Below, piece by piece: positions 24,260 to 27,386 of a stretch of DNA of 64,000 nucleotides. Both the position numbers and the translations under genes were made by a program. The notes beneath the pieces are model-generated. The model searched no databases. It was not told the DNA's origin and worked only from the letters and a program-made list of their open reading frames with translations. Source of the DNA: Calothrix sp. PCC 7103 (GTDB taxonomy: Bacteria; Cyanobacteriota; Cyanobacteriia; Cyanobacteriales; Nostocaceae); assembly GCF_000331305.1 (NCBI RefSeq), contig NZ_KB217478.1, positions 1,595,679-1,659,678 on the forward strand. The letters run 5' to 3'. Within the stretch, counting starts at the first letter, position 1. Every line of letters starts with the position of its first letter.

Positions 24260-26353
24260 CTAATCATTATCTAGGCGACTGAAAAAACACACACATTGTT
24301 GCCACCAGCGAGCTGTTAAAATCATGCTATTCATCTCCCATATTCCCAAAAGCTTTATCCTCCAAGGGTTTTCTATAAAGCTAAAAAATGGTAAATGCCC
24401 AATGGCAGCATCTAAACTAAAATTCAAATAATCATAATCTAACCAGTTATCTTTAAGTCTCCAACCTACACGGTTCGCAAAATCAATACCTGTTTCACCA
24501 AATTTGACATTATCTTTACCAATGACCATTGCTAAAACATAATCGTTAGGTTGGGTTGATTTTAAACTTTCCCAAATTTGCTTCTGAACACTAAAACCAA
24601 AACGTCCACCGCTATACTTTACCCAAAGACTATCAATAGTATAAATGTCTTGATAAGGTAAATTATTAATATCTTCTGGCTTGAGATAGATGTTTTGATG
24701 AGCAAGCTCCAGTAAAATATGCGTTGTTTCATTATTTGCTTCTTGCCATTTTCCAGATTTGAGTAAATCGTGTAACTTTTGGTAATTGGCGCCAAAATTT
24801 AAAGATATATCTTCTATATTTACTTTGTCTGTGAACAATGTTTGATTTAGCAGAATTTCAATAATGCCTTTTGTTCCCCATAACCAAAAGTATGGTTTAA
24901 TATTTAATGAACCTAACTCGATTTGTAATTGAGTAATCCAACTTGCTGCCGTTAACCCTAATGCTTGGCGCCTTTGTTTTAAAGTACTAAGTAGAATATT
25001 TGTGAACTGTTCTAAATTTTCTTTGGGTGATGCGGCAATTACACATTGTCCTCTATTATGATGTAGAGACGTTACATGTAACGTCTCTACCCATTCCTGT
25101 ATTAAATTTGGACAATCTAAAATAATAATTTGTTGTGTATTGGGTATTTTTTGTAACTGCTTTTTTAGCCACGAACGAGTCATTTTTAGAGTTGAAGATA
25201 ATGCCAGTAATGTTTCACCATCAGGTGTTTTTTCAATACTCGCACGTAAATACAACAAAACGGCGCCATGTTCCAATTCCAATAGTTTAATTATACTAGA
25301 ACGCAAAGCAGCCGATGTTGCTGGTTGAAATAAATAGTCTACGTCAAAACCACCATCCGCACGTAGTATTTCAATAATTTCTTGACAAGCATCACTAGGT
25401 GGAAGTCCTTCAATAACTAAAGCTTTCCGCAAAGGATGCTGTTTACCTTTACTACTTTTCAAACCCAAAATTAATTGTCCTACCCCTTCAACTATCCGCT
25501 TAGGGGTTTGCAGAGAGTACTCCTGATAAGCTTCAGTTATTCCAATACTTCGGTTCTGCTGGTTAATTAATCTTAATTGTTGATTTGTCTTATCTATATA
25601 TGAGAGCGTTTGCTGATAAACATACTTATATAAGCCATCTGCATCTATTACACCTTGTGCATCTGCCGCATCACCAAGCAACCCTTGCATGAGATAATAC
25701 GTAAATAATCCATGTTGCAACTCTGGAAATTCCCAAGATAACTGGTCTTGGTCGCAAGATAGTAAAGCATAAAATCCTTTACTTTTAGCCGCACGTTGTC
25801 GCAACAAATTTACTAACTGGTTCGTAGGATTTTCTTCGTTTTCATTATCTCCTTTGGCGCCAAATAAAGTCATTCCCCCACTATGACAAGCATCCAACCA
25901 AACCACCTGCTGCTGTGCTGGACAACTTTCGAGAGTTTTTAACAATTCTTGTAAACTTAAACCCGTGGTGCCTAAATTATCCTTATGCGTATCTTGTAAA
26001 CAAAGAACTACACACTCGCTATTATCAATAATTCCATGCCCAGAAAAATAAAATATCACCGTATCTTGAGGTTTTGCCAAGGTAACAATTTTTCGTAAAC
26101 TGCCGCGAACTGCTTCTAGGTATGGAAGTTCCGAAGCAAAATCATGATGAACCATTACTTGAAGAAGTGGAAACCCTTGTGTCGCTTGTTGTAAAGCATC
26201 CGCTAAACCCTGACAATCTTGAGATGAATAATTTAAATAAGGTATTTGGTTATCTTGGTATTGATTTACACCTATTAACAACTGCCATATTTTGGCGGCG
26301 CCTGTTTCTAGAGCATTAGTTGAGTTACTGGTACGAATAGCTACAGGAGACAT
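24260..26353 (-). CDS. Caspase-like (C14) protease fused to a GUN4 domain
   Basis: 697 aa. Residues about 20-265 form a metacaspase/orthocaspase domain with catalytic His106 (FYFSGHGI) and Cys156 (DACHSGG), both intact. A middle region (about 290-500) has no family I recognise. Residues about 523-655 form a GUN4 domain: LLKSGKWQEANNET, IDSLWVKYSGGRFGFSVQKQ, NRVGWRL and AIGHLP. GUN4 binds porphyrins or bilins and activates Mg chelatase. A short tail (FSFIENPWRIKLLGIWEMNS) follows. The gene lies 64 bp downstream of por in the same direction. A 28-bp perfect SIR palindrome (25063-25090) lies in frame within the middle region. The fusion suggests proteolysis gated by tetrapyrroles; this is inference. 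Confidence 0.9.
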   Translation of the reverse strand: MSPVAIRTSNSTNALETGAAKIWQLLIGVNQYQDNQIPYLNYSSQDCQGLADALQQATQGFPLLQVMVHHDFASELPYLEAVRGSLRKIVTLAKPQDTVIFYFSGHGIIDNSECVVLCLQDTHKDNLGTTGLSLQELLKTLESCPAQQQVVWLDACHSGGMTLFGAKGDNENEENPTNQLVNLLRQRAAKSKGFYALLSCDQDQLSWEFPELQHGLFTYYLMQGLLGDAADAQGVIDADGLYKYVYQQTLSYIDKTNQQLRLINQQNRSIGITEAYQEYSLQTPKRIVEGVGQLILGLKSSKGKQHPLRKALVIEGLPPSDACQEIIEILRADGGFDVDYLFQPATSAALRSSIIKLLELEHGAVLLYLRASIEKTPDGETLLALSSTLKMTRSWLKKQLQKIPNTQQIIILDCPNLIQEWVETLHVTSLHHNRGQCVIAASPKENLEQFTNILLSTLKQRRQALGLTAASWITQLQIELGSLNIKPYFWLWGTKGIIEILLNQTLFTDKVNIEDISLNFGANYQKLHDLLKSGKWQEANNETTHILLELAHQNIYLKPEDINNLPYQDIYTIDSLWVKYSGGRFGFSVQKQIWESLKSTQPNDYVLAMVIGKDNVKFGETGIDFANRVGWRLKDNWLDYDYLNFSLDAAIGHLPFFSFIENPWRIKLLGIWEMNSMILTARWWQQCVCFFSRLDND
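25063..25090. repeat. SIR palindrome inside the caspase-GUN4 coding region
   Basis: A perfect 28-bp palindrome with arms GTAGAGACGTTACA, read in frame as part of VETLHVTSLHHN in the linker between the two domains. It belongs to the same family as the intergenic copies. Confidence 0.9.
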
Positions 26354-26417
26354 TTTGACTCTGTGGTAAAAAAATATTTGTATGCACAGGCATCCCTGCC
26401 TGTGCTACAAGATAATA

Positions 26418-27386
26418 CTATGCTAGTCCGACTAGTTTTTCAGTGAGCTCCCACATGCGTTTTGCTGTTTTATCGTCTGTGGCTTTTTCTGAAAGTTCTT
26501 GTACGAAGGACTGGCGCCCTTCTTTTTGACGGTTGCCCCAACTCCAATGGGCACCAGATTGGTTAAACTCTGGGTCAGCTACGACTTGTGCGACTCGTTC
26601 ACCAGATAGTTCCTGAGAAACATATCCTCCTGTAATGTTTTTTTGGAACCAAGGGAATATTTTTTGGAATAGTGGGTAGCTGTTGCGGAATAAAGGTGTG
26701 TCAGCTACGCATCCTGGATATAGCGAACTAAATGTAATGCCTGTAGAGTCGTGATAACGTTTGTGTAACTCGCGCACGGTAATCATGTTACACAGCTTGC
26801 TGTCTTTGTAAGCTTTACCTGCTTTGAATTGCTTACCGTCTATCATACTAATAGGCGCCTTAAATCCAGCTTCTAATCCCTTTAAGTCTCCCAAATCTGC
26901 TGGCGCCGGAATGGGTATTTTACCTCCCAACTCCTTGGAATTGGCTGTTACTGTTCCTAAAATTACCAGTCTTGGTTCTTTGGCGCCTGAATTTTTCAAA
27001 TCTTCCAGCATTAAGTTACACAGCAGGAAGTGTCCAAAGTGGTTTGTGGCAACGCTTAACTCATAACCATCTGGACTATACAATGGTTCCTTTAACAAAG
27101 GCATATACACAGCAGCGTTACATAGCAATGCATCCAGCGATTTGCCAGTTTCTCGAAAACTGTTTACAAACGTCCGTACACTGTTTAAGCTGCCTAAGTC
27201 GAGATGAATAACTCTGTAGCTGTCTTTTGGCATTCCCAAACTAGCTGCTGCTTGTTCTGCCTTTTCTAAATTTCGACACGCCATTATCACATACCAACCA
27301 CGTTTAGCCAGCGCATTCGCAGCGTGCAAACCTACTCCCGAAGAGGCGCCTGTAATGATTACCGTTGGTTTTTGACCTTCTACCAT
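26418..27386 (-). CDS. por: Light-dependent NADPH:protochlorophyllide oxidoreductase
   Basis: 322 aa short-chain dehydrogenase that reduces ring D of protochlorophyllide to chlorophyllide in light. The NADPH-binding motif is TGASSGVG (about 13-20), and the catalytic Tyr-Lys is YKDSK (about 193-197), with the LPOR-specific LCNAAVYMP and [19 protein letters not shown]. The length and the C-terminus ending LTEKLVGLA are normal for cyanobacterial POR. Start ATG at 27386. The caspase-GUN4 gene follows on the same strand after 64 bp containing a CAGGCATCCCTGCCTGTGC repeat. Confidence 0.97.

Follow-up and report, generated by a model that had tools for sequence, protein, structure and literature searches.

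The 64,000-nt window analyzed here, taken from the 11.58-Mb genome of Calothrix sp. PCC 7103 (12 contigs), contains a gene for a caspase-type protease fused to a GUN4 domain, located immediately downstream of por. The original prediction had described a single protein with an intact caspase dyad and a C-terminal GUN4 domain, encoded on the same strand as por and 64 bp away from it, and each of these points was borne out by the ORFs and domain matches. Two features that it did not mention came to light as well, an apparent second caspase-fold domain in the protein and a hairpin repeat in the 64-bp gap. The features are listed below (window positions, all on the minus strand).

24260..26353, minus strand: whole gene of the caspase-pseudocaspase-GUN4 fusion, 697 aa
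25499..26302, minus strand: predicted active caspase (Peptidase C14) domain, residues ~18-285, with catalytic His106 and Cys156
24845..25447, minus strand: apparent pseudo-caspase domain, residues 303-503, predicted caspase fold, no conserved catalytic His
24353..24793, minus strand: GUN4 domain, residues 521-667, of a paralog type without LxNxLR (Pfam, motif counts)
24260..24352, minus strand: C-terminal extension, residues 668-697 plus the stop codon, with W672 and E673 in 29/29 fusions
26354..26417, minus strand: 64-bp gap, mostly occupied by one copy of a dispersed hairpin repeat, with a run of seven T after it
26418..27386, minus strand: por, light-dependent protochlorophyllide reductase, 322 aa, a neighbor outside the proposed system

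In the fusion protein, Pfam matched Peptidase_C14 at residues 25-227 (66.3 bits, cut-off 21.4) and GUN4 at residues 521-667 (125.8 bits, cut-off 29.2), and the upstream gene was confirmed as a true LPOR by TIGR01289 (577.6 bits, cut-off 331.35). Caspase-GUN4 fusions have been on record for more than 10 years as 'protease plus signalling domain': they were already listed in 2010 (PMC2853523), three cases were given in 2012 (PMC3501461), and Table 1 of a 2021 survey reports GUN4 in 27 true and two pseudo-orthocaspases out of 473 (PMC8283722). In addition, a tetrapyrrole-sensing role was proposed in 2020 (PMC7159879) for GUN4 domains joined to kinases, caspases, trypsin or TIR. Therefore, neither the caspase-GUN4 fusion nor the sensing idea is new. 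The published GUN4-bearing orthocaspases resemble the present protein in joining a Peptidase C14 domain with an HC dyad to GUN4; however, the passages of these papers that were examined mention neither a second caspase-fold domain nor a common platform.

The N-terminal domain is shown by its conserved dyad and predicted fold to be a predicted active caspase. H106 and C156 were conserved in all 56 aligned sequences of the N-terminal platform, a set composed of PCC 7103, all 28 GUN4 fusions among the 78 loci described below and 27 of the 50 other loci, the latter picked by hand, and the domain thus has the p20-type region with a His-Cys dyad by which orthocaspases are recognized. D46, D154 and E208 were also kept in 56/56 and, judged by sequence, are candidates for an acidic S1 pocket. 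By analogy with other orthocaspases, cleavage would be expected after Arg/Lys.

Residues 303-503 apparently form a second, degenerate caspase-fold domain that is dead, as suggested by structure prediction and residue counts. Alone, this middle domain gave a modest match to the caspase profile (hhalign, probability 60%). In the hhalign register, the place of the catalytic His was occupied by His in 2 of 54 sequences, and the nucleophile place by Pro in 48 and by Cys in none, with a Cys one residue earlier in 52 (these 54 are the platform alignment minus L122 and L129, which were left out for no good reason). Both a caspase fold and the absence of the catalytic dyad, the two marks of a pseudo-caspase, were hence observed. 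In VIA-align searches, MALT1 was the top row for both caspase domains of the fusion, within ties, and 3h11 (caspase-8:c-FLIP) was present in both lists. The protein shares the caspase fold with c-FLIP/caspase-8 and the MALT1 paracaspase, and the tandem cassette parallels caspase-8/c-FLIP of animals, although c-FLIP and caspase-8 are separate proteins and the present domains lie in one chain. By this analogy, the pseudo-caspase probably pairs with the active domain and may set its activity; a substrate-binding role of the middle domain instead of a regulatory one fits equally well. Dead caspase domains beside caspase-bearing partners are also described for the VMAP ternary conflict systems in PMC7159879, where a dominant-negative or peptide-binding role was proposed, but there the dead caspase is fused to a vWA component, whereas here active and dead domains share one polypeptide. 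In the literature searched, which did not extend to most subscription papers or to supplements, a tandem caspase-pseudocaspase cassette was not described for cyanobacteria. We regard this cassette as the item of real interest and the fusion itself as ordinary.

To place the protein in its family, the fusion was compared with 388 genomes of the order, and three types of match were obtained. Full-length matches occurred in at least 11 genomes including its own, all in the family of PCC 7103 (a lower bound, as two candidates were scored per genome); a second type covered the platform, residues 1 to ~505, mostly in ORFs of ~1700 aa; and a third consisted of the GUN4 end alone. Scoring of all candidates in 12 genomes selected from the family added no full-length fusion there. 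Among the best 80 of 194 relatives, the closest named ones by fusion protein (84-92% identity) were Dulcicalothrix desertica PCC 7102, Calothrix sp. PCC 7716, HK-06 and NIES-4105, which together with PCC 7103 are referred to here as the clade. The same 80 relatives gave 78 loci, whose C-terminal arms were nSTAND1 in 43, GUN4 in 28 and others in seven, shares that lean to GUN4 since the query was built from GUN4 fusions. The nSTAND1 proteins have the same ~505-residue N-terminal platform of caspase and pseudo-caspase, but their arm is a STAND NTPase followed by WD40 repeats, which were found by Pfam in all five proteins scanned, and not GUN4. It is worth noting that a third kind of arm was seen in platform proteins of ~700-800 aa (L060-L069), which lack GUN4 and nSTAND1 and have repeats of an 'IGPIA' module at their end; when nine of these proteins were scanned (L066 being the exception), they had no Pfam match beyond the caspase region at E 0.001. 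Except for the fusion itself, no ORF was common to all 10 loci compared.

In a phylogenetic tree of the platform, the GUN4 fusions formed one clade (SH-aLRT 98) placed among the nSTAND1 forms. This tree has 117 rows, reduced from 142 places by removal of identical ones, with places shorter than ~420 residues or containing stops dropped; it was built by a quick SH-aLRT method with no bootstrap, some genes are represented by more than one row, and the distant rows L194, L196 and L200 carry a long-branch warning. The GUN4 clade comprises 38 rows (36 labelled and two truncated copies), within which the Calothrix lineage sits on a long branch (0.62). The three arm changes counted on the tree arise from L038 and L039, truncated copies from PCC 7103/HK-06 whose GUN4 part lies outside the locus. 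The platform of the PCC 7103 clade shares only ~56% identity with that of the other GUN4 fusions and is just as close to the nSTAND1 type, which had raised the suspicion of an independent second fusion in this clade; this was rejected in view of the single GUN4 clade. The simplest reading of the tree and domain content is that a GUN4 module once took over from an NLR-like STAND-WD40 arm, the N-terminal cassette being already in place.

The GUN4 arm was then compared with canonical GUN4 (Synechocystis sll0558, CrGUN4, AtGUN4). Residues were numbered by alignment to the Synechocystis GUN4 structure and by a family alignment including the canonical GUN4 of PCC 7103 itself; beyond the first helices, residue placement depends on a second, weakly aligned stretch and on a MAFFT alignment with the GHLP motif as anchor. 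Seven GUN4 matches are present in the PCC 7103 genome, among them a separate canonical GUN4 (L001) that reads LSNQLR at the place of the LxNxLR motif. Two further matches, L002 and L007 (G000:C7:5915733-5917111), are a GUN4 gene and a second, truncated GUN4 copy ~1 kb further on. The arm belongs to the same Pfam family as canonical GUN4 (PF05419) and has Trp at the W189 place in 29/29 fusions, but, in contrast to the canonical proteins, it lacks LxNxLR and Arg214, has an insert ahead of the GW motif and is fused to a protease. The bilin motif is replaced by F-x-S-x-I-E in the PCC 7103 fusion. Across the 29 fusions, the Asn211 place was Gly in 23, Ser in five and Asn in one; the Arg214 place was Glu in 27, Asp in one and Ala in one, and never Arg; and the F196 place was Leu in 27, including PCC 7103, and Phe in two. 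All 29 have Tyr at the W192 place and a Trp-rich end that marks the fusions (W664, R665, W672 and E673). In the full-protein structure model, the GUN4 part has low confidence (pLDDT <50 at 592-685 and 690-697). The sole fusion with Asn at the Asn211 place is that of Calothrix NIES-4105 (L089; FFNFIE), which offers a natural test of bilin binding.

According to PMC10156173, the Asn of LxNxLR is needed for bilin binding by GUN4, and its replacement by Gly in Chlamydomonas (N219G) abolishes bilin binding while porphyrin binding is kept. F196 and R214 are porphyrin-contact residues, and Arabidopsis GUN4 R211E, the equivalent of Arg214 to Glu, lowers affinity 5-fold for PIX and 12-fold for MgP (PMC8967248). 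Since both the Asn211 and the Arg214 places are changed, a tetrapyrrole switch is weakened as a reading: the residue counts make bilin sensing unlikely, porphyrin sensing may persist, and the ligand of the arm is probably not a bilin. The Asn is kept in 1/29 and the porphyrin-contact Arg in 0/29, and the F196 plus R214 pair is absent from the PCC 7103 arm.

A protease gated by porphyrins independently of por, through an arm that still binds them, seems to us unlikely. It would draw on the CrGUN4 N219G result, as Gly occupies that place in 23 of the 29 fusions, and on the sensor proposal of PMC7159879, but the Glu found at the Arg214 place in 27 fusions is the very change that costs AtGUN4 much of its affinity, and Leu has replaced F196 in the same number. 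A more specific version is a bilin-blind, porphyrin-selective switch, in which a photodynamically dangerous porphyrin on the GUN4 arm would free the caspase from the pseudo-caspase, leading to regulated proteolysis or cell death; it was suggested by the resemblance of the Asn-to-Gly/Ser changes to the CrGUN4 mutation, which removes bilin and not porphyrin binding, and we consider it quite doubtful. If it were true, one execution module would take its input both from tetrapyrrole stress and from the sensing of invaders, as NLR-like arms drive the same cassette in relatives.

Alternatively, the GUN4 arm may be a protein-protein docking or adaptor module with no small ligand, which would bring partners or substrates to the caspase. 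Ten near GUN4 relatives, 45-52% identical to the fusion arm, were scanned: eight have a kinase and one GUN4 domain, one has a kinase and two GUN4 domains, and one has GUN4 without a kinase. In the kinase proteins, as in the fusion, a GUN4 paralog is the C-terminal module of a signalling enzyme, but a kinase replaces the caspase and most of the aligned sequences diverge or end soon after the GHLP motif. Such use on kinases, the abundance of GUN4 (up to 13 matches per genome at E 1e-15) and the retention of the Trp-rich end alongside the loss of known ligand residues would suit docking. Nevertheless, no partner is known, and conservation of Trp and Tyr close to the pocket could reflect a retained ligand. 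We rate docking as rather improbable.

We also analyzed the linkage with por, for which a functional pairing with the fusion had been proposed. On the same strand, por precedes the fusion in all five clade genomes that carry it intact, and a remnant of the fusion is present in a sixth genome of the same genus (G353). The gap is 64 bp in PCC 7103 and 134 bp in HK-06, 1373 bp in PCC 7102 (with a ParE-like toxin gene inside), 2780-2795 bp in PCC 7716, where a pentapeptide gene in antisense and part of an ISL3 transposase intervene, and 4519 bp in NIES-4105, which has an antisense PIN gene and others there. The gene directly upstream of the fusion is por in PCC 7103 and HK-06, and a toxin-like, transposase-like or unnamed ORF at L086, L087 and L089. 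In G353, por sits at the end of a contig, and the 444 bp after it contain no start of the fusion; the last ~120 residues of the fusion are found in two frames at the edge of another contig (L201 1-600, G353:C30), followed by pentapeptide, DUF4870 and GNAT genes as in PCC 7103; the broken frame indicates either that the gene is dispensable there or an assembly fault. An antisense PIN-gene or PIN-like sequence after por was recognized by eye in NIES-4105, PCC 7102, PCC 7716 and G353, and the 64-bp gap of PCC 7103 is therefore probably derived. Gene order is thus an inherited trait of the clade, but the gap itself has not been conserved.

Outside the clade, por was absent from the flanks of all 24 named fusions, 21 of them examined over 6 kb upstream (two, C. 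brevissima NIES-22 and C. membranacea FACHB-236, fall outside the clade despite the name Calothrix), and in nine whole genomes outside the genus, which overlap in part with these 24, por was on another contig or at least 1 Mb from the fusion. Further examination of the 64-bp gap revealed that most of it is a copy of a dispersed hairpin, GCACAGGCAnnnATGCCTGTGC, whose core has 15 exact copies in the genome versus none for a reversed-pattern control. Its RNA is predicted to fold at -21.6 kcal/mol (z -4.76), with seven T after the hairpin; by fold and T-run, the hairpin is terminator-like, although a simple terminator scan did not list it.

A tetrapyrrole-gated protease coupled to por, made from one transcript, sensing porphyrin or bilin by GUN4 and firing as chlorophyll intermediates accumulate, is highly improbable on these data. 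The same strand and short gap in PCC 7103, por upstream in the five clade genomes, and a GUN4 fold with Trp and Tyr at the W189 and W192 places speak for it. It is opposed by the foreign or antisense genes in the gap in three of the five genomes, the hairpin and T-run in PCC 7103, the distance of por elsewhere, and the Asn211 and Arg214 places, which are Gly/Ser in 28 and Glu in 27 of the 29 fusions. Gap variation, unlinked por outside the clade and the hairpin together mean that a common por transcript is neither conserved nor favored, and an operon with por was rejected on these grounds. Synteny among relatives thus holds as gene order inside the clade and fails outside it, and tight adjacency is not conserved even within the clade. 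The link looks like a local accident, positional and not functional, but some effect of position may exist, as the order is common across the clade.

Substitution rates were estimated in four comparisons. The fusion has dN/dS values of 0.17-0.26, and thus is under constraint, with no positive selection seen in any of the four (values well under 1). By this measure, por (0.045-0.055) evolves 3-5 times more slowly than the fusion. The other neighbors range from 0.036 to 0.150, and among them the HPP gene (0.13-0.15) is not much below the fusion. In 4/4 comparisons, the middle domain had the highest dN of the three parts of the fusion. None of 100 matching PLSDB records (72,556 searched) covered 80% of the fusion, that is, no full fusion was seen on these plasmids. 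A defence-system assignment by PADLOC was rejected: the PD-T4-6 model (PDLC04062) matched at positions 294-430 of 450, over the GUN4 part only, and the other match was a generic caspase model. We take the remainder of the PD-T4-6 model to be a kinase, a domain that Pfam did not detect in the fusion. As the C-terminal part of PDLC04062 matches GUN4, cyanobacterial hits to PD-T4-6 may reflect GUN4 domains. The NCBIfam model NF047832 of the EACC1-associated caspase system (PMC7159879) was missed very narrowly (139.6 bits against a cut-off of 140). An EACC1 gene would be expected directly upstream in such a system; in the five clade genomes this position is held by por or by the toxin-like, transposase-like or unnamed ORFs mentioned above.

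Taken as a whole, we lean slightly towards a self-contained, arm-gated caspase-type protease, comprising an active caspase, a pseudo-caspase regulator and a GUN4 paralog as input arm, with por linked by position. The N-terminal domain would be the protease, presumably with basic P1 specificity, and the adjoining pseudo-caspase would hold or tune it. The tree and domain content suggest that the GUN4 paralog took the place of the nSTAND1-WD40 arm in one clade, so this arm is most likely the input, which may release the protease under stress or in conflict. A role in stress, defence or death is inferred from the domain company. An active/dead caspase cassette kept with three kinds of arm offers a testable idea of how prokaryotic caspases are restrained and switched. 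Two questions are now apart, namely the por linkage, for which a functional role is not supported, and the ligand of the GUN4 arm, which is probably not a bilin.

Two other observations were made in the window. By their translations, the overlapping ORFs 30265-30702 and 30659-30901 (both minus strand) look like a PIN-type toxin and its antitoxin. In addition, the full-length Dus gene at 28732-29784 (minus strand) seems to have a shortened and diverged copy nearby, the 104-aa ORF at 31037-31351 (minus strand).
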